A DNA stretch of 64,000 nucleotides, taken from positions 2,170,001 through 2,234,000 of the forward strand of contig CP069419.1 of the NCBI GenBank assembly GCA_017569285.1, read 5' to 3'. The translations under genes and the position numbers were made by a program. Of the stretch, positions 9,370 through 34,085 are shown piece after piece. The notes beneath the pieces were generated by a model. That model was not told where the DNA came from and did not search any database. It was given only the letters and a program-made list of their open reading frames with translations. How positions within the stretch are numbered: position 1 is the first letter of the stretch; the number at the start of each line of letters is the position of its first letter. The stretch comes from Clostridiales bacterium (GTDB lineage: Bacteria > Bacillota > Clostridia > Christensenellales > Aristaeellaceae).

Positions 9370-9412
9370 CCCGGGAAGTGGGAACGGACAAGAGAAGGGG
9401 AGGGACCGGAAC

Positions 9413-12821: not shown

Positions 12822-14663
12822 ATGGGAAAGATCCAATTATTCCTGAACAATTTCTACAAGATGACGTTTGAGGGCAAGGGCGCCTTCTGGGGCATCATCC
12901 TGGCAGTCCTGCTCCTTGTCCTGGTCTATCTCTGCGCGGAAAACCTCAGGAACAAGCTGAAGAGAAAGGAATGGTTCCTGCTGGCTGTTCCGGCGCTGCT
13001 GCTGGCTGTGTTCGCGCTGGTGCTGGTCAACTCCTGCAACTACGTTCCGATATCGGAACGGGCGGAAGGCACCCCGGCTTACGCCTGGGAGCAGACGACC
13101 AAGAAATCGGAAAACACCCTGGAGTATGTGTCGGACGTGAAGGATCCCGCCACCGGGGCGGCCTGCACCCAGACATATACCTTCAGCGATATCCTGGGCC
13201 GGCTGACCACCCGCGAGACCTCCGACCATGTGGCGGAGGAATTCACGGTGACCGGATCGGACGAAACCTCCGGAATCACTTTCTACCCGGACGGAACCTA
13301 CAGGTTCAGCACAGCCGACGGCAGTGCTGAGGAGACCGGAAAATATACCTATGCGGACAAGGCGCTGACGCTGGTGAACGACACGGACGGCACCGAGACC
13401 AAGGTGGGCAAAACCAGCTCCAAGCTGCGGTACACCTCCGCGGTGACGGATCCCGCCACCGGCGAGGCGTACAAGGCGGAATACGGCATCAAAGGCCTCA
13501 AGGAAATGTTCGTCATTGAGGAAAGCGCCGAAGCTGTGCAGGAAGCCTATACAGCGGAAAGTACGGACGGAGCCACCTCCATCACGTTCAATCCGGACGG
13601 CACGTACACCTTCGCGGCGGCGGACGGCAGCGTGCAGGAGAACGGACACTACGCCTACCGCGGCGGCGAGCTGGTGATGGCCAACGCCGAAGGCGCGGCC
13701 GCATTCCGGAAGAATTTCAGCGCGCAGTATATCTGGCTGATCTTCGCGGCGGCGGTCGCAGCGGCGATGGTGCTGATCTATGTGTTCCATGACAGGATCA
13801 AGGCATTCCTGAACCGGCACCCGATGATCTGGCTGCTGATTCCCGCGGCCCTGCTGATCTACTTCGTGTATGTGGCCATCGGCTGGAACGTGTGGGTGTC
13901 CGTGTCCGACTGGCCGGACCACAGCCAGACAGCCTCTTACGGCTGGGGCGGTTTCGGGCAGTATGCGAAGATGTTCGCCGACAGCTCCTTCTGGAATTCC
14001 GTGTGGAATACGCTGAAGCTGTTCCTGATCATTCCGGTCTGCCTGCTGCTGGGCCTGGGCCTGGCGCTGGTGATGGACCAGGGCCTGAAAGGAACCCCGG
14101 TATTCCGGACGCTGATCCTGCTGCCATTTGCCCTTTCCTTCGTGGTGACGGGCCTGATCTGGCAGCAGATGTTCAACGGCAACGGCGGTATCCTGGTGGA
14201 ATTCTTCCGGCTGCAGGGAATTAACCTGAATATCAACTGGACCAGCAACGAGATGGTCATGTTCTCGATCATGCTGGTGATGGTATGGCAGTTCTCCGGC
14301 TATGTGGCGGTGATCTTCCTGGCGGCCATCAAGAATGTGCCGACCAATATTGTGAACGCCGCCAAGCTGGACGGTTCCTACATGCCCCGCATCTACCGGA
14401 AGATGATCCTGCCGCAGATGACCGGCGCAATGGGCAGCTGCATCACCATCCTGGCCATGTACGCGCTGCGTTCATTTGACCTGATCTACTCACTGACCAG
14501 CTACACGAATCCGGCATCCGCGACACTGCCGATCATGATGTACAACGAAATGTACGCCCATGACAACTATGCGTACGCCGCGGCTATCAGCTGCTTCCTG
14601 CTGGTGATGGTACTGGTGCTGATTCTGCCGCTGACTTACCTGACGAACAGGAGGAAGAGATAA
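12822..14663 (+). CDS. MalF-type sugar permease with extra N-terminal membrane and duplicated outer domain
   Basis: A 613-residue inner-membrane permease, about twice the usual length. Residues 21-40 and 51-70 are two additional membrane helices. Residues 71-300 form an extracytoplasmic region with two similar repeats (about 101-190 and 203-290), each containing DPATG and an ITFxPDGTYxF...ADGS...GxYxY pattern. Another helix (302-322) leads into the canonical permease from about residue 335. The EAA loop, AAKLDGSYMPRIYRKMILPQ, is normal. It pairs with the permease at 14665. The outer domain could dock the binding protein or glycan, as the periplasmic loop of MalF does, but the position and fold differ. 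No family name was recognised for the repeat. Confidence 0.9.
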   Translation: MGKIQLFLNNFYKMTFEGKGAFWGIILAVLLLVLVYLCAENLRNKLKRKEWFLLAVPALLLAVFALVLVNSCNYVPISERAEGTPAYAWEQTTKKSENTLEYVSDVKDPATGAACTQTYTFSDILGRLTTRETSDHVAEEFTVTGSDETSGITFYPDGTYRFSTADGSAEETGKYTYADKALTLVNDTDGTETKVGKTSSKLRYTSAVTDPATGEAYKAEYGIKGLKEMFVIEESAEAVQEAYTAESTDGATSITFNPDGTYTFAAADGSVQENGHYAYRGGELVMANAEGAAAFRKNFSAQYIWLIFAAAVAAAMVLIYVFHDRIKAFLNRHPMIWLLIPAALLIYFVYVAIGWNVWVSVSDWPDHSQTASYGWGGFGQYAKMFADSSFWNSVWNTLKLFLIIPVCLLLGLGLALVMDQGLKGTPVFRTLILLPFALSFVVTGLIWQQMFNGNGGILVEFFRLQGINLNINWTSNEMVMFSIMLVMVWQFSGYVAVIFLAAIKNVPTNIVNAAKLDGSYMPRIYRKMILPQMTGAMGSCITILAMYALRSFDLIYSLTSYTNPASATLPIMMYNEMYAHDNYAYAAAISCFLLVMVLVLILPLTYLTNRRKR

Positions 14664-14664: not shown

Positions 14665-15570
14665 ATGCAGGACAACATGATTGCTGAGCGCAGCAAGGCA
14701 GGGCAGGCGGCACAGACGCTGCGGGTCAAGCCGAAATGGCATATGACCGTGCTGCATATTGTCTACTACCTGATCCTGGTCCTTTTCCTGGTATTCTACA
14801 TGCTGCCCTTCTGGGGCGCGCTCGTATCCTCCTTCAAGAGTAATGCCGAGGCGATCAGTACGTCGCCCATCGCGCTGCCGCAGAACTTCTCCATGGAAGG
14901 TTACAGCGGCGCTATGGACCTGCTGGCGGTCTCCCTGCTCAACAGCCTGGTGGTTACGGTATTCGGCGCCGCCGGATCCGTGTTCCTGGGATCGATCTGC
15001 GCGTACGCGCTGGGCAAATGGAAGTTCAGGCTGAACAACGTGTTCTTCATCGCCCTGATCGCGGCCACGTACCTGCCTTTCCAGGCGATCCTGATCCCCC
15101 TGCTGAGGAATATAACCAGTTACGGGCTGTACGACAATATATGGGGTATTGTGCTGGCTCACTCAATTTTCGGAATGCCGATGTGCACCACCATGATGCG
15201 CGGCTACTATGCCGAGGTGCCGGACGCACTGATCCGCCAGGCCATGATCGACGGAAACGGCATGTGGCAGATTTACCGGAAAATTGTGGTGCCCAACACC
15301 AAGCTGGCGACGATTACCACGTTTGTGTTCCAGTGCACATCCATCTGGAATGAGATGCTGTTCGCACTGGTCCTGGCAAACCAGGGCGAGGGCGCGCAGG
15401 CGCCGCTGGCCACGATTGTGCTGAACAGCTTTGTGGGTTCAACGGGTGTGGAAATCAACCAGCTGATGGCCGGCTCCATGATCCTGGCCCTGCCGATGCT
15501 GATCATCTACATCTTCATGGGTAAGTACCTGATCAGCGGCCAGATGAGCGGTGCGGTTACCGCGTCGTAA
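14665..15570 (+). CDS. MalG-type sugar ABC permease
   Basis: A 301-residue permease with six predicted membrane helices and a typical EAA loop (RQAMIDGNGMWQIYRKIVVP). It begins one base after the stop codon of the larger permease and is certainly part of the same transcript. The length is normal for the family, unlike its partner. It imports the sugar delivered by the binding protein at 9413, powered by the ATPase at 17570. Confidence 0.93.
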   Translation: MQDNMIAERSKAGQAAQTLRVKPKWHMTVLHIVYYLILVLFLVFYMLPFWGALVSSFKSNAEAISTSPIALPQNFSMEGYSGAMDLLAVSLLNSLVVTVFGAAGSVFLGSICAYALGKWKFRLNNVFFIALIAATYLPFQAILIPLLRNITSYGLYDNIWGIVLAHSIFGMPMCTTMMRGYYAEVPDALIRQAMIDGNGMWQIYRKIVVPNTKLATITTFVFQCTSIWNEMLFALVLANQGEGAQAPLATIVLNSFVGSTGVEINQLMAGSMILALPMLIIYIFMGKYLISGQMSGAVTAS

Positions 15571-15590: not shown

Positions 15591-17564
15591 ATGAAAACAT
15601 TCAAAAAGATTGCATCCCTGGTCCTGGCCGCCCTGCTGGCGCTCGGCGTGATGCCCGCCGCGGCAGAAGACGCGCCGGTACAGCCGGAGCTGGGAGCCCG
15701 GGTGAAGGACATCATTGAAGTGGACGGATACCGGTTCAGGGACCTGAATGACAACGGCGAGCTGGATCCCTATGAGGACTGGCGGCTGACCGCCGAAGAG
15801 CGGGCGGACGACCTGCTGGGCAAAATGGATATTGACCAGCAGGCAGCGCAGATGGTGCACCTGACGCTGGTAACGATGAAGGACAGCTGGTTTACCAAAA
15901 ACAACGTGGGGTTTGCCCTGGTTTACGAATACATCTTCGAAACGGAAGAACCCGATGAGGATGAAGAGGAAGACGAAGAGGACGAGGACGAGGATGAGGA
16001 CGAGGACAAGGAGCCTGAAGGACCTGTATCCAACGCCCGGAACGCCGCGCGCCTGACCAATGAGATCCAGGAGCTGAGCGAAGAGTCCGATTTCGGTATC
16101 CCGGTCATCTTCTCCATGGACACGGAAGCCGGCGCGGCCTTCGTGAAGGACGCAACCTACCTGCCGGATGAAATCAACCAGGGCGCTGCGAATGACGCGG
16201 AGCTGGTGGCGAAACTGAACCGGGTGCTGAAGGAAGAACTGATGGCGGTGGGCGTCCGCATGGCGTTGTCCCCGGATGCTGACCTGATTACCGATCCCCG
16301 GTGGGGCCGGAACCAGGAATGCTATTCCGAAGACACCGAAGTGGTGCAGAACCTGATCAAGGCGGCGGTCAAAGCCCTGCAGGGCGAAAACGGGGTAGAT
16401 GAAAACTCTGTGGTCGCGACTGTGAAGCACTTCCCCGGCGCAGGCGCCCAGACGGGCGGCGTGGACGGAACCCCGCTGACGATCTCCGAAGACTCCCTGG
16501 AGCTCCACCTGGCCGGATTCAAAGCCGGTATGGAAGCCGGGGCGGCCGCAGTCATGCCGTACGGCTACTCCACGGTTCCGTACCTGGGCGGCGACGCGGT
16601 GGACAACTCCGCTGACCAGAGCGCTGTGGTCATGACCGACCTGCTGCGCGGACAGCTGGGCTATGAAGGCATCATCCAGACCGACTGGGGCCTGAACTTC
16701 TCCGGTGCGGCAAATGCCGGCGCGGATATCCTGGGCGGCGCGGGCGTACGCTCCACCCGGCAGGTGGTGGATGAGGTGCCGGCGGAAAAGATCACTGAAG
16801 CATGCCGCCGGATCCTGGTGCTGAAGTTTAAGATGGGCCTGTTTGAGAACCCCTACGTGGACGAAGACGCGGCTGAGGAAATCATCGGCAGTGAAGCGCA
16901 CCGCGCGGTCGCGAAGGAAGCCGCGGCGAAGTCCTTCACGCTGGTGAAGTACGAGAACGCCGTATCCCTGGAAGGACAGAAGTTCATCGTGGCCGGCACC
17001 CTGGCGGACGACCTGCGCTGCCTGAGCAGCGGCTGGACCGCCAAGGAGCCGGTGGAACTGAAAGGTACCACCATCCTGCAGGCGCTGAAGAACAAGGCCG
17101 GTGAAGAAAACGTAACGTATATCGCCGATGCCGCGGAAGTTCCCGCGGACCTGAGCGGTGTGACCGCCGTGGTCGTGATGGGCGAGAAGAGCGGCACCCA
17201 TGATCCCGCGTGGGGCGCCTCCACCCTGGAATTCCCGGAGGAACAGGTGAAGCTGATCAACGCGCTGGACAAGGCAGGCGCCAATGTGACAGCCGTCGTG
17301 GTGATGAACCGCGCCTACGTGCTGACCCCAGTTACGGAAGCAGCGGACAGCGTGCTGCTGGTATACCGCCCCGGCGTAACCTGCGGCGCGGAGGCCGTTG
17401 CGGACTGCCTCTTCGGCGAGACCGAGATCACCGGCCGGCTGCCGTTCCAGATTCCCGCCACCATGGAATCAGTGCTCGCGCAGCGGGAGGATATGCCCAA
17501 GGATATCGAAAACCCGCTGTATGAATACGGCTTTGGTATCGACGCTGAAGGCTTCGGGAGGTAA
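15591..17564 (+). CDS. Secreted glycoside hydrolase family 3 with polyacidic insertion
   Basis: A 657-residue exported GH3 paralogue of the gene at 10770. It has a signal peptide ending near PAAAEDA, an EF-hand-like DLNDNGELDPYEDW loop, TDPRWGRNQECYSED, VKHFPGAG and the nucleophile motif QTDWG with Asp365. Between the first barrel strands a run of about 25 residues (bases 15942-16016) is almost entirely Asp and Glu. It sits where the homologue at 10770 has an ordinary short loop (YLPRADGKIAPYLQKY), so it is probably a surface insertion, perhaps calcium-binding. GGAAAGGAG precedes the ATG. It lies between the permease and ATPase genes of the same operon. Confidence 0.92.
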   Translation: MKTFKKIASLVLAALLALGVMPAAAEDAPVQPELGARVKDIIEVDGYRFRDLNDNGELDPYEDWRLTAEERADDLLGKMDIDQQAAQMVHLTLVTMKDSWFTKNNVGFALVYEYIFETEEPDEDEEEDEEDEDEDEDEDKEPEGPVSNARNAARLTNEIQELSEESDFGIPVIFSMDTEAGAAFVKDATYLPDEINQGAANDAELVAKLNRVLKEELMAVGVRMALSPDADLITDPRWGRNQECYSEDTEVVQNLIKAAVKALQGENGVDENSVVATVKHFPGAGAQTGGVDGTPLTISEDSLELHLAGFKAGMEAGAAAVMPYGYSTVPYLGGDAVDNSADQSAVVMTDLLRGQLGYEGIIQTDWGLNFSGAANAGADILGGAGVRSTRQVVDEVPAEKITEACRRILVLKFKMGLFENPYVDEDAAEEIIGSEAHRAVAKEAAAKSFTLVKYENAVSLEGQKFIVAGTLADDLRCLSSGWTAKEPVELKGTTILQALKNKAGEENVTYIADAAEVPADLSGVTAVVVMGEKSGTHDPAWGASTLEFPEEQVKLINALDKAGANVTAVVVMNRAYVLTPVTEAADSVLLVYRPGVTCGAEAVADCLFGETEITGRLPFQIPATMESVLAQREDMPKDIENPLYEYGFGIDAEGFGR

Positions 17565-17569
17565 AAGAC

Positions 17570-18688
17570 ATGGCTTCGATTACGATCAAGGATATGTGCG
17601 TAAGCTACAACAAGGGCAAGACTTACGTACTGGATAAGCTGAACCTGGATATCAAGGACGGCGAGTTCTGCGTGTTCCTGGGGCCCTCCGGCTGCGGCAA
17701 ATCCACGGCCATGTATTCCATCGCCGGCCTCCTGGAACCCTTCTCAGGCCAGATTTATTTCGGCGATACGCTGATGACGGAAACGGAAAACGGCAAAAAG
17801 AAGACCTTCGTTCCGCCGCAGGAGCGCAACATCGCCATGGTGTTCCAGGAATACGCCCTGTACCCGAACATGACCGTGCGGGAAAATATGGGCTTTTCCC
17901 TGAAGACCAAGAAGGTGCCGAAGGATGAGATTGACCGGCTGGTGAACGAGCAGGCGGCCAAGCTGGAACTGACGGACCTGCTGGACCGGCGGATTGCCCA
18001 GCTTTCCGGCGGCCAGCGCCAGCGTGTGGCCCTGGGCCGCGCCCTGGTGCGCAGCCCCCAGGTCTTCCTGCTGGACGAACCGCTGGGCAACCTGGACGCC
18101 AAGCTGCGTGACCAGGTGCGCTACGAGCTGAAGAAGATCCAGAAGGAACTGAATGTGACCACCATCTACGTGACACATGACCAGACGGAAGCCATGACCA
18201 TGGCGGACCACATCGTGCTGCTGAGCGGCGGCCACATCATGCAGGAAGGCACCCCGAACGACCTGTACGACCATCCGGCCAACGAGTTCGTGGCGGGCTT
18301 CCTGGGCACCCCGCAGATCAATATCTTCCCCTGCAGCGTGAAGGAAGAGAACGGCGCATATATCCTGGACGCGGGCACATTCCGGCTGAAAGCGCCGGAC
18401 CATGTGAAGGCATCCCTGGCACCCTATACGGGCAAAAAGGTGGACCTGGGTATCCGGCCGTCCGACTTTGAGATCGCGCAGGAAGGTGTGAATTCCATTC
18501 CGGCAAAGCTGGATTCCATTGAGCCGCTGGGTGACGCGTACCTGCTGTATGTACGGATCGGCGAAAAAGTGGTAGTATTTAAGTACGCCGGAGAAAAAGC
18601 GCCCACAGAGACGGAAATGCTGCTGAAACCGAACATGGAAAAGCTGCATCTTTTCGATCCGGAAACCCAGAAACGCATCAACGCATGA
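17570..18688 (+). CDS. ugpC: Sugar ABC transporter ATPase, MsmX/UgpC type
   Basis: A 372-residue CUT1-family ATPase. Walker A is GPSGCGKST (38-46), the signature is LSGGQRQR, Walker B is VFLLDEP and the switch histidine is in VTHDQTE. The C-terminal third is the regulatory OB-like domain. It follows the second GH3 by five bases with GGGAGG upstream. This is the only sugar ATPase in the window, whereas there are two binding-protein/permease sets (9413-15570 and 59140-62435). In Firmicutes one MsmX-type ATPase often powers several importers, so it may serve both. Confidence 0.93.
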   Translation: MASITIKDMCVSYNKGKTYVLDKLNLDIKDGEFCVFLGPSGCGKSTAMYSIAGLLEPFSGQIYFGDTLMTETENGKKKTFVPPQERNIAMVFQEYALYPNMTVRENMGFSLKTKKVPKDEIDRLVNEQAAKLELTDLLDRRIAQLSGGQRQRVALGRALVRSPQVFLLDEPLGNLDAKLRDQVRYELKKIQKELNVTTIYVTHDQTEAMTMADHIVLLSGGHIMQEGTPNDLYDHPANEFVAGFLGTPQINIFPCSVKEENGAYILDAGTFRLKAPDHVKASLAPYTGKKVDLGIRPSDFEIAQEGVNSIPAKLDSIEPLGDAYLLYVRIGEKVVVFKYAGEKAPTETEMLLKPNMEKLHLFDPETQKRINA

Positions 18689-18702
18689 CAAGCGCACACA
18701 TT

Positions 18703-18774
18703 CCGGGGGAAAGCTTTGTTTCCCCCGGGATGCCTTTCCGGCAGGGACGGCGTGTTCCGCCCCTGCCGGAAGGG
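18703..18774 (+). repeat. Two adjacent strong hairpins between ATPase and carrier-protein genes
   Basis: The 135-base gap holds CCGGGGGAAA (18703-18712) pairing with TTTCCCCCGG (18719-18728). A longer stem follows, CCTTTCCGGCAGGG (18733-18746) with CCCTGCCGGAAGGG (18761-18774) and an inner CGG/CCG. Neither has a T-tract, so factor-independent termination is doubtful. They mark the boundary between the sugar operon and the Dlt-like cluster and may stabilise or process mRNA. Confidence 0.55.
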
Positions 18775-18823
18775 CAGCCGAAGCTGATCGGCGTGCTGCA
18801 CCAAGAACAGGGGGGTATCTGGC

Positions 18824-19060
18824 ATGACCGATATGGAAAAGCTGCTTGCGGCACTGGCGGAGGTCCGCGACGACGTGGACTTCGCCGGCGAGGACGCGCT
18901 GGTGGACGACGGGCTGATCGACTCCTTCGACCTGACCCAGATCATCGCCGCCCTGGACGAAGCCTTTGACATCCATATCATCACCGGCGATATTGAGCCG
19001 GAAAACTTCAACAATGTGCGGTCCATGCTGGAGCTGGTGCACAGGTACCAGGGAAAATGA
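18824..19060 (+). CDS. dltC: DltC-like acyl/aminoacyl carrier protein
   Basis: A 78-residue carrier protein, the normal size for DltC. The phosphopantetheine site is GLIDSFDLTQ with Ser34. In the Dlt pathway the adenylated amino acid is loaded onto this arm and presented to the MBOAT protein. The start has AGGGGGG upstream. It overlaps the next adenylation gene by four bases (ATGA). It is the only carrier protein in the cluster, although there are two adenylation enzymes. The name rests on context and size; other small carrier proteins look similar. Confidence 0.82.
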   Translation: MTDMEKLLAALAEVRDDVDFAGEDALVDDGLIDSFDLTQIIAALDEAFDIHIITGDIEPENFNNVRSMLELVHRYQGK

Positions 19061-20547
19061 GCACGCGGAATATTCTGGACTGGCTGGAAGAGGCAGCGGA
19101 TGCCGCGCCGCAGTCCACGGCCTGTGACGGGCCGGGCGGAAGCTATACCTGGGGTGCCCTGCGGACGAGGGCCCGGGAAACCGGGACCTTTCTTTGCGCG
19201 CTGACGGGGCGGCAGCAGCCGGTGCTGATCCTGATGGAGAAGAGCCCGGACTGCCTGTGCGCGATGTTCGGGGCGGTGTACGCGGGGTGCTTTTACACGC
19301 CGCTGGACTCCTCCATGCCCGAGGCGCGGATGCGGATGATCGCGGAGACGCTGCAGCCGGCGGTCGTGCTGTTTGAGGAAAAGTTCCGGGATATTGCCGG
19401 ACGGATCGCGGGGGACGCAAAAACAGCGTGCTTCGCGGAGATTCCCGGCGGGGAAGACGCGGGAAAGCTTGCGGAACGCCGCGCGGGACATATCGATACG
19501 GACCTGCTGTACGTGCTGTTTACGAGTGGGTCCACCGGCGTGCCCAAGGGTGTATCCATCACACATCGGAGCGTGGTGGACTTCGTCGAGTGGGCCTGCG
19601 GCGCGCTGCGGCTGCCGGAAGGCGTACGCTTCGGAAGCCAGGCGCCGTTCTATTTTGACAATTCCGTGCTGGACATCTACTGCGCGATGAAGATGCGGGG
19701 CAGCCTGCACCTGATCCCGCGTGGTGATTTTATGTTCCCCAAAAGGCTGATGGAACGCATCAATGCCGAGAAGATTGACACGCTGTTCTGGGTGCCGTCG
19801 GCGCTGACGGCGCTGGCGAACGCTGACGTGCTGGCCCCCGGATCGCTGCCGGGCGTGAAGCGCGTGTTCTTCTGCGGGGAGACGATGCCCTGCGCGACGC
19901 TGAACCGCTGGAAGCAGGCCCTGCCGGACGCGGACTATGTGAATATGTACGGGCCGACGGAGATTACGGATGTGTGCGCCTGGTACCGGGTGGACCGGGA
20001 CTTCGCGGACACGGACAGCCTGCCGATCGGGTTCCCGTGCGGCAATACAAGGATTGAGCTGATCGACGGGGAGATCTGCGTGGGGGGCACCTGCCTGTCG
20101 CCGGGCTACTACAACGCGCCGGAAAAGACCGCTGCCGCCTTTGTGCAGAATCCGCTGCGGCCGCAGATCCGGGAAATCCTCTACAAAACCGGCGACCTGG
20201 GCGAGTACAGCGACCGCGGGGAGCTGATGTTCCTGGGCCGGCGGGACAGCCAGATCAAGCGCAGCGGATACCGCATCGAGCTGGGTGAGGTGGAGTGCGC
20301 GCTGAGCGCGGCGGAGGGCGTGGAGCTGGCATGCTGCTGGTATGATGCTCCGAACGAAAAGATTATCGCGGCCTTTACGGGGACCGCGGATGAAAAGGAT
20401 ATCCGGAAGGCGCTGAAGGCGGCGCTGCCCAAGTATATGCTGCCGGACAGCCTGCTGCGCCGGGATACCATGCCCCGGACCGGCAGCGGAAAGATTGACC
20501 GGGCAGCGCTGAAACGGGAGGCGGAACTTGAGCATACTGACCGTTGA
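19057..20547 (+). CDS. dltA: DltA-like amino acid adenylation enzyme
   Basis: A 496-residue AMP-forming enzyme that would activate an amino acid and load it onto the adjacent carrier. Core motifs are LFTSGSTGVPKG (154-165), NMYGPTEIT, YKTGDLGEY and the catalytic lysine in GSGKIDR. The FCGE motif carries Cys273; a cysteine at this position is linked to D-alanine selectivity in characterised DltA enzymes. D-alanine is therefore the best substrate guess. The start overlaps the carrier gene, and the end overlaps the MBOAT gene by 20 bases, so translation is tightly coupled. Confidence 0.88.
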   Translation: MSTRNILDWLEEAADAAPQSTACDGPGGSYTWGALRTRARETGTFLCALTGRQQPVLILMEKSPDCLCAMFGAVYAGCFYTPLDSSMPEARMRMIAETLQPAVVLFEEKFRDIAGRIAGDAKTACFAEIPGGEDAGKLAERRAGHIDTDLLYVLFTSGSTGVPKGVSITHRSVVDFVEWACGALRLPEGVRFGSQAPFYFDNSVLDIYCAMKMRGSLHLIPRGDFMFPKRLMERINAEKIDTLFWVPSALTALANADVLAPGSLPGVKRVFFCGETMPCATLNRWKQALPDADYVNMYGPTEITDVCAWYRVDRDFADTDSLPIGFPCGNTRIELIDGEICVGGTCLSPGYYNAPEKTAAAFVQNPLRPQIREILYKTGDLGEYSDRGELMFLGRRDSQIKRSGYRIELGEVECALSAAEGVELACCWYDAPNEKIIAAFTGTADEKDIRKALKAALPKYMLPDSLLRRDTMPRTGSGKIDRAALKREAELEHTDR

Positions 20548-21976
20548 GTTCCTGGCCTTCGCGGCATGTACGCTGCTGCTGTACTACCTGATGCCGCTGA
20601 AGGTCCGCTGGCTGGTGCTGGTATGCGCCAGCGCGGTTTTTGTATGCCTTTCCGGCTGGTACAGCGCGGCGCACCTGACGGCAGCAGCCCTGGTGATGTG
20701 GGGCGGCGGCCTGCTGCTGCGGAAAAAGAAGAGCCGCCTGCTGCTGGCTGTGCTGTTGGTACTGGACCTGGGCGCCATGGCTTTCCTGAAGTATTATCCC
20801 GCCTTCTCCGGGGCGGACCTGATCCTGCCGCTGGGCCTGAGCTATTTCACGTTCCAGAGCGCGGGATACCTCATTGACGTATACCGCGGCAAGGCGGAGG
20901 CCCGGAAGAACCCGCTGGAGGCGTGGCTGTTCATCGGATACTTCCCCCAGCTGGCACAGGGGCCGATTTCCACCTGGAAGGAGCTGGGCAGCCAGCTGCG
21001 GACCGGGCACCCGCTGGATCCCGACAATTTCGTATCCGGCTTCCAGCTGCTGCTGTGGGGCTACTTCAAAAAGCTGGTGATCGCGGACCGGCTGGCGGCG
21101 GTGACGGATGCCCTGCTGAAGGGCGGGGACCTGCCGGGCTGGTTTGTGCTGGGTGGTGTGACCTTGTACGCCATCCGGCTGTACCTGGATTTTTCCGGCG
21201 GCATGGACGTGGTGCGCGGTTTCTCCCGGATGGCGGGAATTGAGCTGCCGGAGAACTTCCGCCGGCCGTTCTTCAGCCAGAGCGTGGCAGAATACTGGCG
21301 GCGGTGGCACATCACGCTGGGTGCGTGGTTCCGCTCGTATCTGCTGTACCCGCTGACGACCTCGAAGGCAGGCATCGGGCTGGGCAAGGCGGCATCGAAG
21401 GCATTCGGGAAAAAGACGGGGCGCATGGTGCCCAGCGTGCTGGCGACGATGCTGGTGTTCCTGCTGATCGGTATCTGGCATACCGCCAACTGGAACGCGG
21501 TGGTGTTCGGCGCTTACTTCGGCATCGTAATGGCAGCCAGCATGCTGCTGGAACCGGTGTGGAAGAGCATGCGGACCGCGCTGAACCTGCCAAAGGATGG
21601 CTGGATGAAGCCCTTCCGGCTGGTGCGGACGTGGATCCTGATCCTGATCGCGCAGTACTTCGCGTTTACGGCCGGCCCCGGGCAGGGGCTCAGCCTGATG
21701 GCGCAGACGGTGCAGCCGTGGAGCTTTGCCGGCTTCGCCGAAAAGATAACCGGCGTGATGGAAATGACGGAGTGGATGATCATCGTGGCGGGATGCGTGA
21801 TCGTACTGATTGTGGACATCCTGTGCGAGAAGAATATCGACGTGTGCGGCAAGCTCGCGAAAACACATTTCTGGATCCGATGGCCGGTGCTGCTGGCGCT
21901 GATCCTGGCGACTGCGGTACTGGGAATCTACGGTTCGGGTTATGACGGGGCGGCGTTCCTGTATACGCAGTTCTGA
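20528..21976 (+). CDS. dltB: DltB-like MBOAT membrane acyltransferase
   Basis: A 482-residue multi-spanning MBOAT protein. Both hallmark histidines are present: His261 in YWRRWHITLGAWF and His318 in GIWHTANWN. MBOAT proteins of the DltB/AlgI group move activated groups across the membrane onto teichoic acids or polysaccharides. The start is TTG with GGGAGG upstream, inside the end of the adenylation gene. Its neighbours (carrier, adenylation enzyme, SGNH protein) favour a DltB-like role over AlgI-type O-acetylation. Confidence 0.88.
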   Translation: MSILTVEFLAFAACTLLLYYLMPLKVRWLVLVCASAVFVCLSGWYSAAHLTAAALVMWGGGLLLRKKKSRLLLAVLLVLDLGAMAFLKYYPAFSGADLILPLGLSYFTFQSAGYLIDVYRGKAEARKNPLEAWLFIGYFPQLAQGPISTWKELGSQLRTGHPLDPDNFVSGFQLLLWGYFKKLVIADRLAAVTDALLKGGDLPGWFVLGGVTLYAIRLYLDFSGGMDVVRGFSRMAGIELPENFRRPFFSQSVAEYWRRWHITLGAWFRSYLLYPLTTSKAGIGLGKAASKAFGKKTGRMVPSVLATMLVFLLIGIWHTANWNAVVFGAYFGIVMAASMLLEPVWKSMRTALNLPKDGWMKPFRLVRTWILILIAQYFAFTAGPGQGLSLMAQTVQPWSFAGFAEKITGVMEMTEWMIIVAGCVIVLIVDILCEKNIDVCGKLAKTHFWIRWPVLLALILATAVLGIYGSGYDGAAFLYTQF

Positions 21977-21995
21977 GGGCGGAAAGGAAACGAAG

Positions 21996-23108
21996 ATGGC
22001 AAAGGAAGCAACAGGCGGGAAGAAAAAGGCGGGCTTTTTGATCCGGCTCGCCTGCTTTGCGCTGCTCACTGTGCTGATGCTTGCTTTTGCCACCTATGTG
22101 CTGACCCCCAAGCATGACTACGGAATCTGTTCCATGATCAACCTGTACCGCCAGCCGGAGAACAGTGTGGACGTGCTGACGGTCGGGACCTCCCTGGCCT
22201 ATGCCGGGGTGAATACCAATGTGCTGTGGGAGGAATACGGAATCGCCTCCTACAACCTGTGCAGTGCGGAACAGCCCTTCTGGGTAAGCTACTACACGAT
22301 TAAGGAAGCGCTGAAGACGCAGCACCCGAAGGTAATCCTGCTGGATGCCAAGCCGGCTATATATAGCCGGGATTATTCCAAACGCGGACGGACGATCCTG
22401 TCAACCTTCGGTATCCGGGGAATTGAAAACCGGATTGGCGCGATCCTGGCCTGCGTGGAAAAGCCGCAGGATGCGATGGGATATATCCTTGGCCTGCCGG
22501 AGGTCCATAATGGCTATGCGAAACGGACCTGGAATGATTTTGCTTTCCCGCCGGACAACGGGGGACGCGGCGTGTCCTGGAAAGGGTACATTGAAAGCGA
22601 CGTCACGGAACACCATGACCGGCCGTCCCTGGTGTGGAACCGTGTGAAGCGGAACATGAATGACCGGGAAGAGGAATACGCGCGGAAAATTTTTGAGATG
22701 GCCCGGGATGAGGGAATCACGATCATGCTGGTGGGCTTCCCGAATCCCGACTACGCGAACGATCATATGTATTACAACACCCTCTGGGCTGTTGCTGCGG
22801 AATACGGGGTGGAGGGGATCAACTACAACGATCCGTCACTCCGGTTCGGGCTGCGGTATTCCTCTGATTTTGCCGACTGGCAGCACCTGAATGTGAAGGG
22901 GAGCATTACCTTTACCCGGAAGCTCGGGGCAGACCTGAAACAGATGTTTGACCTACCGGACCGCCGGGGGGACGCGCATTATGCCTCCTATGACACATGC
23001 GCACAGCTGTGGGCGGAAAAATACCCGGACTTCGAGTCCTCCGGCGCGGAAGGCCGTCCGCTGGATTGGTTCCCGGAGCCGGCGGAACAGGAACCAATGG
23101 ACTTTTAG
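21996..23108 (+). CDS. Membrane-anchored SGNH-like protein, DltD-like
   Basis: A 370-residue protein with one N-terminal membrane helix (about 15-36) and an extracytoplasmic SGNH-hydrolase-like domain. The nucleophile motif is VGTSLAYAG with Ser66, and a DWQHLNVKG segment near residue 300 supplies the Asp-x-x-His pair. DltD proteins have this layout and act after DltB in transferring D-alanine. Sequence similarity to classical DltD is low, so the assignment rests mainly on topology and position. GGAAAGGAAACGAAG precedes the ATG at 21996. Confidence 0.75.
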   Translation: MAKEATGGKKKAGFLIRLACFALLTVLMLAFATYVLTPKHDYGICSMINLYRQPENSVDVLTVGTSLAYAGVNTNVLWEEYGIASYNLCSAEQPFWVSYYTIKEALKTQHPKVILLDAKPAIYSRDYSKRGRTILSTFGIRGIENRIGAILACVEKPQDAMGYILGLPEVHNGYAKRTWNDFAFPPDNGGRGVSWKGYIESDVTEHHDRPSLVWNRVKRNMNDREEEYARKIFEMARDEGITIMLVGFPNPDYANDHMYYNTLWAVAAEYGVEGINYNDPSLRFGLRYSSDFADWQHLNVKGSITFTRKLGADLKQMFDLPDRRGDAHYASYDTCAQLWAEKYPDFESSGAEGRPLDWFPEPAEQEPMDF

Positions 23109-23126
23109 CCAACAGGAGGTTTAACC

Positions 23127-24632
23127 GTGAAATCCAATATGCTGGAATTCCTGGAGGAAACCGCGCAGCGGCTGCCGCAGAAGGTTTCATTCTACGATGA
23201 CCGCGAAAGCCTGACCTATGCGCAGCTGACGGAAAAAGCACAGCGGATCGGTTCATGCCTGGCGGCAGCGGTTCCCGTGCGCACACCGGTGGCGCTGCTG
23301 CTGGAAAGCCGCAGCATCCGCAACGTATCCGCCATGTACGGTACGCTGTACGCCGGGTGTGCCTACGCGCCGCTGGATATCGCGATGCCGCCGGAACGCC
23401 TGAAGCTGCTGCTGGATCTGATGCAGCCCTCGGCGGTGCTGGCGGATGAAAAAGGCGCGAAGGCTTATGAAACCCTGGGGATGAATATACCGCTGATCCG
23501 GTACGCGGACGCGGAAGCGGCGGATACTAACGCGGGAAAGCTAGCGGCCATCCGCCGGCAGGCCAGCGTGTACGACCCGATGTCCGTGCTGTACACCTCC
23601 GGATCCACGGGCATCCCGAAGGGATCCATCCAGACGCATTTCAGCTATGTGAACTGGACAGACGCAACCAACGAGGTATACAGCTTTACGGAAGATATGG
23701 TATTCGGCAACCAGTCACCGTTCTTCTACGCAAATTCCGTGCTGGACGTAATCTCCCCGGTTTCACTGGGCGCAACGGTGTACCTGCTGCCAGCAGGGGT
23801 GCTGGGATTCCCGAAAAGGCTGCTCTGCTGCCTGAAGGAACAGCATGTGACCTGCCTGTGCATGACGCCGAGCAGTTTCATCAGCATTGTGAATGCAGGC
23901 GTGCTGGCACCCGGCTGCCTGCCGGAACTGAAGTGGGGCATTATGAGCGGCGAATCCATGCCGTGGCCGCCGCTGAAAGTGTGGATGGACGCGACGCCGA
24001 ACGCCGGCTGGTGGCACTACTACGGCAGCACGGAGATGTTCTCCGTGGCGGTAGGCAAGGTACCGCATGAGTATGACGCGGGCAGCCGCCTGCCGGTGGG
24101 CCGGCCGTTCCGGCTGGCGCATATTCTTTTCCTGGATGAGAACGGGAACGAGGCAAAGCCCGGAGAGCCGGGTGAAATGCTGCTTTCCAGTCCCTGGATT
24201 GCCTGGGGGTACCACCGGGATCCGGAACGGACGATGGCCTCCTGGGTGGTGGACCCGCTGGAACGCGGCTGGCAGGAACGTTTCTTCCGCAGCGGGGATA
24301 TTGGTTACCTGCAGGAGGACGGCCAACTGATGGTGCTGGGCCGCCGGGACAACCAGATCAAGCATATGGGCTACCGTATGGAACTGGGCGAGGTGGAAGC
24401 TGTGCTGCGCGGCCTGGAAGGCTGGAAGGAAGGCTGCGTGCTGTACAATCGGGAGAATGATGAAATCTGGTGCTTCTGGTCGGGCACACTGGATGAGAAG
24501 CAGCTTCGGGCCGGGCTGAAGGAAAGCCTGGCGCGGTATATGCTGCCGGACAGATATGTGCACCTGGAAAAAATGCCGCACACCCCATCCGTGAAGGTGG
24601 ACCGCAATACCCTGAGTCAGATGATGAAATAA
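23127..24632 (+). CDS. Second amino acid adenylation enzyme of the Dlt-like cluster
   Basis: A 501-residue adenylation enzyme paralogous to the gene at 19057. Motifs are LYTSGSTGIPKG (155-166), YYGSTEMF, FRSGDIGYL and the catalytic lysine region PSVKVDR. At the position of the DltA cysteine this protein has Ser274 (IMSGES), and the canonical GPTE is GSTE, so a different substrate is plausible. The start is GTG with ACAGGAGGT upstream. No second carrier protein is nearby. It may load another acid onto the shared carrier, or be a variant with partly changed function. It is the last gene before a terminator. Confidence 0.85.
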   Translation: MKSNMLEFLEETAQRLPQKVSFYDDRESLTYAQLTEKAQRIGSCLAAAVPVRTPVALLLESRSIRNVSAMYGTLYAGCAYAPLDIAMPPERLKLLLDLMQPSAVLADEKGAKAYETLGMNIPLIRYADAEAADTNAGKLAAIRRQASVYDPMSVLYTSGSTGIPKGSIQTHFSYVNWTDATNEVYSFTEDMVFGNQSPFFYANSVLDVISPVSLGATVYLLPAGVLGFPKRLLCCLKEQHVTCLCMTPSSFISIVNAGVLAPGCLPELKWGIMSGESMPWPPLKVWMDATPNAGWWHYYGSTEMFSVAVGKVPHEYDAGSRLPVGRPFRLAHILFLDENGNEAKPGEPGEMLLSSPWIAWGYHRDPERTMASWVVDPLERGWQERFFRSGDIGYLQEDGQLMVLGRRDNQIKHMGYRMELGEVEAVLRGLEGWKEGCVLYNRENDEIWCFWSGTLDEKQLRAGLKESLARYMLPDRYVHLEKMPHTPSVKVDRNTLSQMMK

Positions 24633-24665
24633 AAAAGAGTCATCGGGATTTGTTCCCGGTGACTC
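24631..24665. terminator. Bidirectional terminator between convergent genes
   Basis: GAGTCATCGGG (24637-24647) pairs with CCCGGTGACTC (24655-24665). Six A residues to the left give a U-tract for the minus-strand regulator gene. The right side ends in CCTGTTTT for the plus-strand cluster. Confidence 0.8.
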
Positions 24666-24678
24666 ATCCTGTTTTGGG

Positions 24679-26148
24679 TCAGCCGCCCGATGTGAACTGG
24701 GACGGGGTCTGACCGGTGTACTGGTGGAACACTTTGGTGAAATAGCTGGAATCCTCATAGCCGACGCAGGCAGCCACGTCGCGCAGCAGCAGGTCCGGCT
24801 TTTCGGTGAGCAGTTTCTTGGCTGCCTCCATGCGGCAGCGGGTGAGCCAGGCGTTGAAGGTGGTGTCGCTGTACTTACGGAAAAGCCGGCTCAGATATGT
24901 CTGGGAGATGCCGATTTCATCGCAGACGCTCTGCATGCTCAGCGGCTGGGCGTAATTGTCCCTGATGTACTGGGCTGCGTAGTCGTACAATTCCCGCGGG
25001 GAAAGCTTGCGGTCCGACATGCTGCCGCCGTCAAACAGCATGGAATAGGCGGAAGCCATCAGGTCACCGGTGGAGGAGGCACTGCGGATCAGGTCATTGA
25101 ACCCGGTGAGCAGATCCTCCTGCCGGGCGCCGATGGACGGGCTGACGGCGGAGGCATGGTGAATCAGCTGGCGGCCAAGGTGCCACACCTCACGCTGGGG
25201 AAGCTGATCCTTCTCCCAGGAAGATGCCAGGGACATAAAGTAATCCTTGATCATGCGGTACTTGGCGGATGTAATGAAATATGTGTACTGGTTCATCTCG
25301 GAGGTGGGAAGGCGCATATGCTCCTTCGGCATGGCACCGCCGGTAAACTGGATGATCTGGTGACGGCCGATGACTGTTTTCCGATACAGCAGGGTGAGGG
25401 ACCACTCGATGAATGCCGGCAGGAATTCAATTTCCCGCTCTGCCGGGGTATATACCGCGGTCCAGGTGCTCAGCGGGCCCTTGCGGGTCATGTATACGCT
25501 CAGGTCGGTAAGGAATTCCTCCACCGGGCCTTCCGGGGCGATGAGAATCTGTTCATCATCATCCCGCCCGCGCAGGACCTGGAAGCGCTCCTGCTTCGGC
25601 AGTACCAGGGAGGAGGCACTCAGCACCCGGGGCAGCGTCATGTCCTGGTTGCCCCAGCGGATCATCGCAAAGCGGAAGCGCCGGCGGCTGTACATCTGGG
25701 CGGCTGTTTCCACGGAGTAGGGTTGGCCGCAGGCAATAGCCGGGAGGAGGGAAGCTTCAATATCGGTGTTCTGGGATGTCAGCTTTTTCTCAATCGACTG
25801 CAGGATGGCGGACATCTTGCTGATGCTGACCGGCTTGAGCAGGTATTCATCCACTCCCGCCTCGATGGCACCCTGCGCGTATTCGAACTCCCCGTAGCCA
25901 CTGATGATCACGATACGGATATTGGGCTGGAGTGCACGGGCAGACTTGGCCAGCTCGATACCGTTCATGCCGTGCATGCTGATATCGGTAATCAGCAGGT
26001 CCACGTTTTCCCGCTGCAGGAAATCCAGGGCCTGCTCGCCGCTGGAAGCGGTATCGGCCACCTGGAAGGTGGCGGAAAACTGTTCGATAATGCTCCGGAC
26101 AAACCGCTGCGCCGGCAGCTCATCATCCACGATCAACACCCGGTACAT
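24679..26148 (-). CDS. YesN-type response regulator (REC plus AraC-type HTH)
   Basis: A 489-residue regulator. The receiver domain has VDDE (8-10), acceptor Asp55 in LLITDISMHG and Lys105. A long middle region of unknown fold follows. The C-terminal 100 residues are an AraC-type double helix-turn-helix (SMQSVCDEIGISQTYLSRLF, then VAACVGYEDSSYFTKVFHQY). It is the natural partner for the YesM-like kinase at 6495, although 16 kb separates them. Together they flank the polysaccharide operon and the Dlt-like cluster. GGAGG precedes the start. The AT-rich 248-base gap upstream holds promoter-like TATAAT boxes for this gene and leads to the divergent GH3. Confidence 0.92.
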   Translation of the reverse strand: MYRVLIVDDELPAQRFVRSIIEQFSATFQVADTASSGEQALDFLQRENVDLLITDISMHGMNGIELAKSARALQPNIRIVIISGYGEFEYAQGAIEAGVDEYLLKPVSISKMSAILQSIEKKLTSQNTDIEASLLPAIACGQPYSVETAAQMYSRRRFRFAMIRWGNQDMTLPRVLSASSLVLPKQERFQVLRGRDDDEQILIAPEGPVEEFLTDLSVYMTRKGPLSTWTAVYTPAEREIEFLPAFIEWSLTLLYRKTVIGRHQIIQFTGGAMPKEHMRLPTSEMNQYTYFITSAKYRMIKDYFMSLASSWEKDQLPQREVWHLGRQLIHHASAVSPSIGARQEDLLTGFNDLIRSASSTGDLMASAYSMLFDGGSMSDRKLSPRELYDYAAQYIRDNYAQPLSMQSVCDEIGISQTYLSRLFRKYSDTTFNAWLTRCRMEAAKKLLTEKPDLLLRDVAACVGYEDSSYFTKVFHQYTGQTPSQFTSGG

Positions 26149-26396
26149 AGCGAAACCTCCAGATTGTGATTATATATTTGTATGTATTATAACATATCAA
26201 TTTGGAAAATCCAGCACATGACAGATATCTCCATTGATTTGTGCAGGATATTTCCAAAAACGGGGAAGATGCGGTTTTTTTTCGGAAAGAGTTTCAAATC
26301 TTTCGGATATCCGGCCGGCAATTCATACTATATTTGTATCAGAAACGCAGGACAAGTATGGGAAGACTGCGGAATAAAAAAGGAGGATTATTTACC

Positions 26397-28913
26397 ATGA
26401 GGAAACTGGCTTTGCTGACGGCACTTGTTATGCTGCTCACGTCTGTGGGTATCACAGCATTTGCGGAAGATGAAGCAATCGTGGAAAGCGCTTCCGGCTT
26501 CTACTACATTGAAGCAGAAGGCAGCCGCCCCCGCCTGAGCGCAGCGTCCAAGGATGTATTTATCCAGGTGGACGGCGAGTGGTTCAAGGACCTGAACAGA
26601 AACGGTACCCTTGATGTGTACGAAGACTGGCGCCAGGATGTGCCGGCCCGTGTCGCGGACCTGACGGCCCAGATGACGATGGACGAAAAGGGAGGCCTGC
26701 TGCTCTTCGCATGTATCGCCGGCCAGAACGGATCCACCGTGACCAACTTCAACGCTGAAATCGCCGGATTCGGCGGAGGCGGAAGTGATGCGGCAACTGC
26801 GGCTAGCGCGGCGGTAGTTGACCTGGAGAGCCCGGCGATCAATGACCCGGACAATCTGACTGTGGATGTCAACGGTAAGGTTTACCAGTCCACACGGTAC
26901 CAGCTGCAGACGATGCATGTGAACACCTTTATCGCGGCCCTGACCGGTGTTCCGAAGGACCAGCTGGATGTTTTCAACCGCCTGCAGGGCTATGCGGAAG
27001 ATACGCGGCTGGGTATCCCGGCCACCTTCTCCGGCGACCGTACCTACAACACCTGGGGCGGCATGATTGACGCCCCGCACTATGCGTTCGGTGTTGCCAG
27101 GGATCCCGAACTGCTGTACAACCTGATGAGCGAATATGCCAAGGAATCCGTTGCACTCGGATACCACCAGGTATTCCACGGATACGGCAATGAAATCGGA
27201 TCCTGGTACGGCGATGATCCCAATTACATCGCCAAGATGGCGGCTGCCGAAACCAAGGCCTATGAGGACAACGGTTTCCAGTCCCACTCCAAGCACTTTA
27301 TCGCCCGCGGCGGACGGAATTCCTACATGGCGGCAAAGTCCCCCGCCAACCTGATTGACTCCTGGAAGATCGGCTGGAAGGCGGTTGTGGATGCCGGCAC
27401 GCAGTACATCATGACGAACAACAACGAGGGCGTCACCCCCGGTGTGCAGGGCTATATGGACAAGGATACCTACGATATCCTGCGCAACGAACTGGGCTAT
27501 GACGGCGTTGTGTGCCTCGACTGGCCCCTGGGCGACTCCAGCCTGATGACGAAGACCGGTATCCTGGCCGACGGAACGGACATCTCCAAGCTGAGCCTGG
27601 TGGAACGGTACGCCCTGATCCTGAACGCGGGCGTGGATATGTTCTCCTGCTCGGTCGGCGTTCCGGGTACGGATGTGAACGATGAAACCTATGCCAGCAT
27701 CTTCATGCACGCCCGTCCCCAGGTTGTGGTCCAGACGGTAACGGACGGCCTGGTAACCGAGGAAGACCTGAATGTGCATGTGGGCCGCGTGCTGAAGACC
27801 AAGTTCGCGTACGGCCTGTTCGAGAATCCCTACCGTGACTGGGGCGAACTGCTTGAGCTGATCGGAACGGATGCCTATAAGGCGGAACAGACCATCCCGC
27901 TGAGCACCGAGACGATCGATACATACCGCCGCCCGGAAATCATTGCCATGGAAGAAGAACTGATGGTCAAGTCCACCATCGTGTACAAGAACGACGGCGT
28001 CCTGCCCCTGAAGGCGGATGCCAAGGTGTACATCGACTCCAATGCCGGCAGCCGGGAAGCCATCGCGGCGGCTGTCGCTGAGAAGGCAACTGTGGTGGAA
28101 GACCTCGCGGAAGCGACGGCAGCCGTGTTCCATGTGACCAGCTTCAACGATGCCTATGAGGCCATGATTGAGGATGCCCAGGACGAGAAGGTGCCGGTTG
28201 TGCTGATCTATGAGGGAACCAACAGCAATGAACCTGCCCTGCAGCAGTTCATTGATGCCAATGCCCTGGTGATGCAGACCTACCGCAACACGCCGGACCA
28301 TGGCTCCTCTGTCGGATCCTTCTACCGCTATGTGACACCGTCCGTGACTGCGGCGATGCTCTTCGGCGAGAAGGAACCCACCGGCAAGACGCTGTTTGAA
28401 CTGGCGTACAACCCGGATGACAAGGCGCTGTCCTGGGGCGAACTGCAGGATGATATCGGTGTGAGCGATGACGTACGGCTGTACATGGCCATGCTGGCCA
28501 AGCGCAACCCCGCAGTCGAAATGCCCAACAACCTGGGTGATGTGATCGTCACGGACGGCTTCGGCATTGAGCTGAGCAAGCCTGCTGATATCCACCTGAG
28601 CCTGCTGACCGTTCCGCGCACTGTAAAGAATGAAGAAGTGGAAACCTCTTCCGGCATGCAGATGCAGACCACGGTCAATACCAGCATCCTCAAGGCGGGT
28701 GAGCCCTTTACAATCCGCTTTGTGGCTGAGAACACCGGCGCCGGTGACGGCCTGATCACGGTTCCTGTGCTGGACAACGGCGAGGCTGCCGCGGAGAAGG
28801 TTGTGGGCGTGACTGCCGGACAGTTCCGGGTGATCAATGTGGACCTGGTCCTGGAAGCCGGCGAGCATACCATCACTGTGGGTGATCTGTCCGCAACGGT
28901 TACCGTTGAGTAA
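26397..28913 (+). CDS. Secreted divergent glycoside hydrolase family 3 protein
   Basis: An 838-residue exported protein with signal peptide MRKLALLTALVMLLTSVGIT and a cut after AFA. It carries the EF-hand-like DLNRNGTLDVYEDW loop, then a divergent GH3 barrel: KHFIARGG replaces KHFPGAG, GYGNEIGSWYGDDP replaces the PRWGR segment, and the candidate nucleophile is Asp375 in CLDWP. The last 110 residues look like a CARDB-type beta-sandwich. AGGAGGA precedes the ATG at 26397. It is divergent from the YesN regulator. Activity is uncertain because canonical substrate-binding motifs are altered. Confidence 0.85.
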   Translation: MRKLALLTALVMLLTSVGITAFAEDEAIVESASGFYYIEAEGSRPRLSAASKDVFIQVDGEWFKDLNRNGTLDVYEDWRQDVPARVADLTAQMTMDEKGGLLLFACIAGQNGSTVTNFNAEIAGFGGGGSDAATAASAAVVDLESPAINDPDNLTVDVNGKVYQSTRYQLQTMHVNTFIAALTGVPKDQLDVFNRLQGYAEDTRLGIPATFSGDRTYNTWGGMIDAPHYAFGVARDPELLYNLMSEYAKESVALGYHQVFHGYGNEIGSWYGDDPNYIAKMAAAETKAYEDNGFQSHSKHFIARGGRNSYMAAKSPANLIDSWKIGWKAVVDAGTQYIMTNNNEGVTPGVQGYMDKDTYDILRNELGYDGVVCLDWPLGDSSLMTKTGILADGTDISKLSLVERYALILNAGVDMFSCSVGVPGTDVNDETYASIFMHARPQVVVQTVTDGLVTEEDLNVHVGRVLKTKFAYGLFENPYRDWGELLELIGTDAYKAEQTIPLSTETIDTYRRPEIIAMEEELMVKSTIVYKNDGVLPLKADAKVYIDSNAGSREAIAAAVAEKATVVEDLAEATAAVFHVTSFNDAYEAMIEDAQDEKVPVVLIYEGTNSNEPALQQFIDANALVMQTYRNTPDHGSSVGSFYRYVTPSVTAAMLFGEKEPTGKTLFELAYNPDDKALSWGELQDDIGVSDDVRLYMAMLAKRNPAVEMPNNLGDVIVTDGFGIELSKPADIHLSLLTVPRTVKNEEVETSSGMQMQTTVNTSILKAGEPFTIRFVAENTGAGDGLITVPVLDNGEAAAEKVVGVTAGQFRVINVDLVLEAGEHTITVGDLSATVTVE

Positions 28914-28963: not shown

Positions 28964-28988
28964 TTCTGCAATGAAAGATGGTGAAGAA

Positions 28989-33971: not shown

Positions 33972-34011
33972 CACCCGCCGCGGCATCTGCCGCGGCGGGT
34001 GTTTCGTTTTT
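33972..34011 (+). terminator. Intrinsic terminator after GH3
   Basis: CACCCGCCGCGG (33972-33983) and CCGCGGCGGGTG (33990-34001) form a perfect 12-pair stem with a six-base loop. It is followed by TTTCGTTTTT. Confidence 0.9.
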
Positions 34012-34027
34012 CCCGGGATATACGGAG

Positions 34028-34058
34028 GCTTTCCCAAAGCTTCGCGCCATGGTATACT
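34028..34058 (+). promoter_or_regulatory. Promoter with conserved spacer (copy 2 of 2)
   Basis: TTTCCC (34030-34035) and TATACT (34053-34058) are 17 bases apart. The block matches 4117-4147 at 29 of 31 positions, including GCTTTCCCAAAGC and CGCGCCATGG. It drives the GH20 gene at 34086. Confidence 0.65.
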
Positions 34059-34085
34059 GAACGGCGGAAAAGAAAGGCGGTGCGA

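Follow-up and report, generated by a model that had tools for sequence, protein, structure and literature searches.

A Dlt-like gene module with two diverged adenylation enzymes and one DltC-like carrier in a clostridial glycan locus

INTRODUCTION

The Dlt system (DltA, DltB, DltC, DltD and DltX) brings together an adenylation enzyme, a small carrier, an MBOAT acyltransferase and an SGNH protein. The same families stand together in a gene module that we analyze here, at 18824-24632 of a 64,000-nucleotide stretch of a Clostridiales bacterium genome (contig CP069419.1, positions 2,170,001 to 2,234,000, forward strand; hereafter the window). Compared with Dlt, however, this module has two adenylation enzymes (A1 and A2), a shuttle motif fused to the MBOAT, scores below the cut-offs of the Dlt family models, and surroundings of GH3 and sugar-importer genes.

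In Dlt, the FxYxxF motif resides on the separate peptide DltX, whereas PatA carries it at its own C terminus, where an acyl-Tyr forms in the same motif as in DltX (PMC12148441; this and the other articles cited are drawn on in part). PatA/PatB and other acyl-CoA-fed MBOAT-SGNH pairs share with the module the C-terminal FxYxxF and the SGNH partner, but according to that article the MBOAT-SGNH pathways other than Dlt have no carrier, whereas the module has both a carrier and two loading enzymes. Single-adenylation Dlt-like clusters, mostly from Lachnospiraceae and Oscillospiraceae, contain the same four families in the order adenylation, carrier, MBOAT, SGNH; in contrast to the module, they mostly have one adenylation enzyme with a pocket mostly of the DAK type, and their flanks give no GH3 match (58 loci).

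The AlmE/AlmF/AlmG system of lipid A glycylation handles one acid, with another transferase and in another envelope than the module. Like A1, AlmE is a stand-alone enzyme with a pocket Cys that serves an envelope modification (PMC11253843). The keto- and hydroxy-acid domains StsA, EnSynA1 and engineered TycA have a small or aliphatic residue at pocket position 235, and StsA also has its conserved Pro replaced, in both respects like A2 (PMC11253843); these domains are parts of peptide synthetases, whereas A2 lies in an envelope acylation module. Searching the literature by titles and abstract openings, we found neither a two-loader Dlt-like system nor acylation tied to a GH3/sugar-importer locus.

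The original prediction for this stretch, made from its letters, proposed that a Dlt-type pathway loads two different acids on one carrier. The underlying observation is confirmed and is larger than first described, and the two-acid reading is favored in a sharper form, in which the second acid is predicted not to be an amino acid.

RESULTS

Two Separately Conserved Adenylation Pockets

Pocket positions in the fetched adenylation enzymes were placed by motif in what we take to be the corresponding sites. The pocket was read at ten positions in GrsA numbering, using the position list of PMC11253843. In the alignment of the fetched loci the codes are DNLFFCMDVK for A1 and ANLCISYSVK for A2, with DLMVLCTVCK for a DltA-like reference (L042). 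A1 has Asp201 and Cys273 at the DltA positions, but Asn202 and Asp305 where L042 has Leu and Val. A2, unlike A1, is without both the Asp that anchors the α-amino group (Ala202 in its place) and the proline of GPTE (Ser301). The residues on which the original prediction was built, Cys273 (FCGE; codon TGC) and GPTE in A1 and Ser274 (MSGE; AGC) and GSTE (Ser301; AGC) in A2, were exact.

A named scan with two peptide patterns took in 80 of 107 relatives. Row sets were first picked by the leading code letters (plus Lys for A2), so that counts for those letters were circular, and the counts were then repeated with rows picked by identity to the window proteins and not by pocket. Identity placed 30 rows with A2, of which two are pieces of the L078 gene, split into two ORFs (open reading frames), and were left out, and 24 rows with A1, of which four of the DAK type at 42.5 to 43.4% identity were left out. 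All 28 whole A2 rows have YGSTE, a C-terminal Lys and Ala at GrsA position 235, the last count being inflated because one scan pattern, NQSPFFYA, contains that Ala; GSTE lies outside both patterns. All 20 A1-type rows have Asp235, Cys301, Asp330 and YGPTE, and Asp235 is found in all 24 rows nearest A1. Ala235 together with Ser for the GPTE proline occurs in 28/28 whole A2 rows and 0/20 A1-type rows. Independent of the pattern, a whole-genome protein search gave Ala235 in the window and three orthologs (4/4), and Ala235 also occurs in the extra A2-type copy of L064, which was picked up solely as a neighbor. Whether A2 had lost catalytic residues was also checked, and its catalytic motifs are kept: the P-loop reads TSGSTG or TSGTTG in 28/28 rows, with PKG in 27.

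Asp235 touches the substrate α-amino group (PMC11355689), and Asp197 of DltA does likewise (PMC8972799). At 235, Ala or Gly occurs in two examples of hydroxy-acid adenylation and Ile in the keto-acid domain StsA, which also carries Met where LgrA has the conserved Pro483 (PMC11253843). By numbering (483 in chain 9be3_A, 485 in 6mfy_A) this residue maps to the Pro of GPTE. The likeness of the A2 pocket to these hydroxy- and keto-acid domains makes it probable that A2 takes an acid lacking an α-amino group, in the simplest case a hydroxy or keto acid. The two pockets may thus well serve different acids, that of A2 being probably not an amino acid.

For A1, the original prediction linked Cys273 to the D-alanine selectivity of DltA. 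The Cys is present, but glycine-specific AlmE also has a key pocket Cys (Cys316; PMC11253843), at what we take to be the same position, so that the Cys by itself need not mean D-alanine; Asn202 and Asp305 moreover differ from L042. A small amino acid, or one of D configuration, would suit the A1 Cys, with D-alanine as one option, and no named acid can be read from either pocket code. AlphaFold2 models of both enzymes are confident, with predicted local distance difference test (pLDDT) values of 91.5 for A2 and 90.1 for A1. Structure searches returned DltA, PltF, VinM and nonribosomal peptide synthetase domains, the near-top Foldseek matches being VinM, Txo2, DltA, LgrA and PltF for A2 and PltF and DltA for A1. 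These matches to predicted models confirm the adenylation family without naming an acid, and the structure search gave no clear substrate hint for A2.

Comparison with Dlt Families

The five ORFs of the module lie on one strand in the order carrier, A1, MBOAT, SGNH, A2, as the original prediction had it, with two adenylation enzymes and one carrier (Table 1). Taking the mechanically called ORF starts, the successive overlaps from the carrier to the SGNH gene are 4, 20 and 35 bases, and 18 bases separate the SGNH and A2 genes. NCBIfam ranks Dlt models high for the carrier, A1, A2 and the MBOAT, yet every score is far under its cut-off: 275 bits for A1 and 217 for A2 against 559.85 (DltA equivalog), 153 against 375 (DltB, for the MBOAT) and 27 against 68 (DltC, for the carrier). 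No protein of the whole genome matches DltA over the cut-off, which is strict for this class, as it is passed by the best match in 0/99 class genomes. Pfam matches neither the carrier nor the SGNH protein, and the latter, with no NCBIfam match either, is named from its motifs and position. An LtaS-like and a TarF-like protein, one of each and both weak, are encoded elsewhere in the genome; its only sulfatase-family protein found scores 45 bits against a lipoteichoic acid synthase cut-off of 970, and no clear lipoteichoic acid synthase was found in the genome.

The MBOAT carries the WRRWHITL histidine and ends in FLYTQF, and DltB is the only solved structure that its sequence matches. Among MBOATs of at least 350 amino acids (aa), a C-terminal FxYxxF is present in 19/19 from loci with two adenylation enzymes (two-A loci; the split MBOAT of L052 was left out) and in 46/51 of the others. 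No other ORF of at least 20 aa in 17000-27000 ends in the motif as a separate DltX would. The SGNH Ser and Asp/His motifs are kept in 17/17 complete relatives. The MBOAT would thus be carrier-fed with a built-in shuttle, and because carrier and fused shuttle motif occur together, the system stands between Dlt and the carrier-free MBOAT-SGNH classes.

A profile built from nine carriers matched the window gene alone in its own genome, at E values up to 10, so that the search for a second DltC-like carrier, distant and dedicated, returned no candidate. That one DltC-like carrier serves as the candidate partner of two loaders holds at the sensitivity of this profile. PF00550 finds, in addition to the fatty-acid carrier AcpP, an AMP-binding and aminotransferase protein with a carrier fused to it; the gene beside AcpP is one that we take to be PlsX-like.

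Conservation and Kinship

Besides the window, 17 complete loci have all five families, and 16 of these keep the order carrier, A1, MBOAT, SGNH, A2; in the exception, L072 (G013), A2 is on the opposite strand. L056, L060, L070 and L076 are cut by contig ends and are not counted among the 17. Record titles of the complete loci include Blautia, Murimonas, other Lachnospiraceae, Oscillospiraceae and Candidatus Limiplasma, and the module is thus spread over several clostridial families; the Murimonas intestini record (L055) is flagged UNVERIFIED_CONTAM. Some handles denote the same genomes (L051 and G009, L058 and G015, L072 and G013, L062 and G189, L069 and G350).

In a tree of 71 rows, which took in 13 of 52 DAK-type rows and for which L076 was too short, A1 (20 rows) and A2 (27 rows) each form one clade with 100/100 support; the two join at 98/83 and stand separate from the groups of DltA-like and single-adenylation enzymes. 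The tree is unrooted and was drawn with a midpoint root, and to call A1 and A2 sisters assumes a root outside them. The stem branch is 1.0 for A2 and 0.52 for A1. Distances among A1 and among A2 proteins correlate with r 0.61 over 17 loci (one of the two L064 A2 copies used, the window omitted for its near copy L058), a value reached in 3 of 2000 permutations; r is 0.90 when L072, with its A2 from a different subclade, is dropped, the permutations having been run for the 17-locus set only.

When 396 genomes of the order were searched with A1 (up to three candidates scored per genome), six gave matches at E 1e-120 or better. Three of these, the genome of the window included, have an A1-type code, and in 3/3 the module contains A2; the other three have DAKCAGLGMK, DIQYIGVVNK and a gene split by a stop codon, whose code was not read. 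Sub-cut-off scores, pocket codes, the tree and the separately conserved pockets together bear out the statement that this is not a standard dlt operon.

Several loci differ in composition. L064 (1858-9503), one of the 16 loci that keep the order, has three adenylation genes in one module, A1 and two A2-type copies (ANTCVSFGVK and ANITISFSVK). In L066 (7980-10727) and L072 (7980-10774) an A2-type gene adjoins, or is convergent with, an AT3-family (Acyl_transf_3) acyltransferase gene, and the L066 flanks contain no DltC-like carrier. A distant cluster, L131 (6611-12234; G108), has tandem adenylation genes (DNFFVCLDVK and DNFFLAMDIK, both with Asp), a carrier, a shorter MBOAT, an SGNH-like gene and a 72-aa ORF that ends in GTFIYEAF, like a separate DltX. 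The single-adenylation loci L024, L025, L026 and L027 have Lys at pocket position 239 and an extra gene between the adenylation and carrier genes, which encodes a GNAT acetyltransferase in L024-L026 and a PLP (pyridoxal phosphate) decarboxylase-like protein in L027; L026 contains a further AMP-binding gene that is very distant.

The Surrounding Glycan Locus

The original prediction placed the module next to a polysaccharide operon. The surrounding genes are instead those of glycan uptake and breakdown, not of polysaccharide synthesis: a solute-binding protein, a GH3 protein, two ATP-binding cassette (ABC) permeases, a second GH3 protein and an importer ATPase precede the module, and a regulator, further GH3 genes and beta-helix and CBM9-like genes follow it (Table 1).

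Among the 21 two-A loci, whole or cut, the ABC ATPase is matched in 17, of which L072 is only 26-29% identical, leaving 16 good matches. GH3b is matched in 15, the response regulator in 14, the permease in 13, GH3d in 12, GH3c in 11, the CBM9-like gene in 10 and the beta-helix gene in eight; the GH3 locus is absent from the fetched flanks of L052, L059 and L072. Across the flanks of the 58 single-adenylation loci, the ABC ATPase is matched in three, and no match was obtained for GH3 proteins, the regulator, the permease, the CBM9-like gene or the beta-helix gene. The two-A module is part of the glycan locus in most genomes examined.

Table 1. Features of the module and its surroundings, in window positions

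Feature	Position	Strand	Details
Extracellular solute-binding protein	9359..10780	+	
GH3 protein (GH3a)	10770..12749	+	
ABC permease (PermF), long N-terminal part	12822..14663	+	Lipocalin_4 match 22.7 bits against cut-off 22.4; no single stretch passing
ABC permease (PermG), conserved neighbor	14665..15570	+	Named from sequence and place, no library scan
GH3 protein (GH3b), conserved neighbor	15591..17564	+	
Sugar ABC importer ATPase (UgpC/MalK type), conserved neighbor	17570..18688	+	
Hairpin-rich intergenic stretch, ABC ATPase gene to carrier gene	18689..18823	+	-78.4 kcal/mol, z -5.6
DltC-like carrier protein	18824..19060	+	78 aa; attachment Ser34 in DSFD; weak DltC match
A1, DltA-like adenylation enzyme	19057..20547	+	496 aa; code DNLFFCMDVK; Asp201, Cys273, GPTE; Pfam AMP-binding
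A1 codon 201, Asp, α-amino anchor (GrsA 235, DltA 197)	19657..19659	+	
MBOAT transmembrane acyltransferase	20528..21976	+	482 aa; C-terminal FLYTQF shuttle motif; WRRWHITL histidine; Pfam MBOAT
SGNH protein, DltD position	21942..23108	+	388 aa; GTSLAYA ... DWQHLN; single N-terminal hydrophobic stretch
A2, second adenylation enzyme	23127..24632	+	501 aa; GTG start; code ANLCISYSVK; Ala202, Ser274, GSTE; AMP-binding
A2 codon 202, Ala replacing the α-amino anchor Asp	23730..23732	+	
Terminator-like hairpin, module end after A2	24637..24665	+	12 pairs, T-rich tail
Response regulator with AraC-type DNA-binding domain	24679..26148	-	
GH3-type protein (GH3c)	26241..28913	+	
Beta-helix protein	28971..30446	+	
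CBM9-like protein	30527..31327	+	
GH3-type protein (GH3d)	31537..33924	+	

The intergenic stretch before the carrier gene contains two long hairpins, and the corresponding intergenic regions of five of the 17 complete relatives also fold better than shuffled sequences (z -2.25 to -6.33) despite differing sequences. These hairpins are perhaps an element of mRNA stability or expression balance; no riboswitch or known RNA was found at gathering score within 6000-37000. Further along the window, an ORF at 33999-36080 fuses a GH20 catalytic domain to an N-acyltransferase-like region (NAT_N and GNAT_C), and a 585-aa ORF at 44074-45831 combines a MatE transporter domain with an HATPase_c_2 domain.

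DISCUSSION

We propose, tentatively and at somewhat less than an even chance for the scheme as a whole, a Dlt-like transmembrane acylation module that loads two different acids on one carrier. A1 would activate a small α-amino acid and load it on the carrier, and A2, a diverged relative of A1, would load the other acid, most likely an α-hydroxy or α-keto acid such as lactate or pyruvate, onto the same carrier. The MBOAT would transfer the acyl group, whichever of the two the carrier bears, to the Tyr of its own C-terminal FLYTQF, from which the SGNH protein would take it to esterify a glycan outside the cell; the surrounding GH3/sugar-importer locus probably handles that glycan. Gene order, residues, conservation and kinship are what the analysis establishes, and from them the catalytic steps, the acids, the shared carrier and the acceptor are inferred. 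Teichoic acid and an exported polysaccharide, put forward earlier as acceptors, and D-alanine as the substrate of A1 are candidates only.

A number of observations weigh against this scheme. Apart from the inflated Ala235 count, one A2 row has an altered P-loop end, PKC; no acid-making gene was noticed in the module; and an enzyme without Asp235 may still take an amino acid, as McyG takes Phe with Val at 235 (PMC11253843). The genome also encodes AcpP, found with PF00550, as a possible other carrier. The strongest evidence against carrier sharing is a subclade of A2 that lies away from the module: in five of its six loci (L066, L067, L068, L073 and the 4.2-kb L076) the fetched flanks contain no DltC-like carrier, the first four also lack MBOAT and SGNH genes there, and in four of the six (L066, L067, L072 and L076) A2 adjoins an AT3-family gene, Pfam Acyl_transf_3 being confirmed in the two scanned (L066 and L072). 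A2-type enzymes may therefore not need the module carrier.

This subclade and its AT3-family neighbors speak for a different arrangement, in which A2 makes an acyl-CoA or loads AcpP or the fused AMP-binding/PP-binding/aminotransferase protein of the same genome and A1 alone feeds the MBOAT. GSTE, as found in A2, is common in acyl-CoA ligases. We nevertheless consider a separate partner for A2 unlikely, though it deserves serious attention, as A2 is the last gene of a tight run closed by a terminator-like hairpin, is nearest A1 in the tree and tracks A1 in its distances over 16 loci. Two amino acids, with A2 holding its α-amino acid without the Asp, would accord with the McyG precedent (PMC11253843) and with L131, where both tandem adenylation genes keep Asp; the joint occurrence of Ala235 and Ser for the GPTE Pro, seen throughout the A2 rows and in none of the A1-type rows, makes this improbable.

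That the module is an ordinary Dlt system for D-alanylation of teichoic acid, in which A2 would be a surplus DltA, is suggested by the overall gene set, by Cys273 and by the structure matches of the MBOAT, all to DltB. This reading is disfavored, and we think it very improbable, in view of Dlt scores far under the cut-offs, the differing pockets, the fused shuttle motif, the GH3 surroundings and a genome in which no clear lipoteichoic acid synthase was found. Least of all do we expect A2 to be a regulatory or dead copy of A1: its longer stem branch, the PKC row and the split gene of L078 would accord with decay, but the conserved P-loop, PKG, YGSTE and C-terminal Lys, together with a complete and confident model, disfavor a dead second copy.

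Returning to the two-acid scheme, its furthest extension is that, as a constant component of a glycan acquisition locus shared by gut Clostridia, one carrier, MBOAT and SGNH set decorates an outer glycan with an amino acid as well as with a hydroxy or keto acid, a view that we regard as doubtful at present. If it is true, acylation would serve glycan handling, in the tagging, protecting or retaining of oligosaccharides, and not cell-wall charge. Dlt is the textbook case of one acid on one polymer, and a conserved module whose two loaders differ in pocket chemistry beside one carrier would mean that acylation of the envelope can combine acids and switch between them. The module also joins two classes that PMC12148441, in the part drawn on here, keeps apart, the carrier-fed Dlt with DltX and the carrier-free MBOATs with a fused shuttle, and it ties acylation to a GH3/sugar-importer locus.

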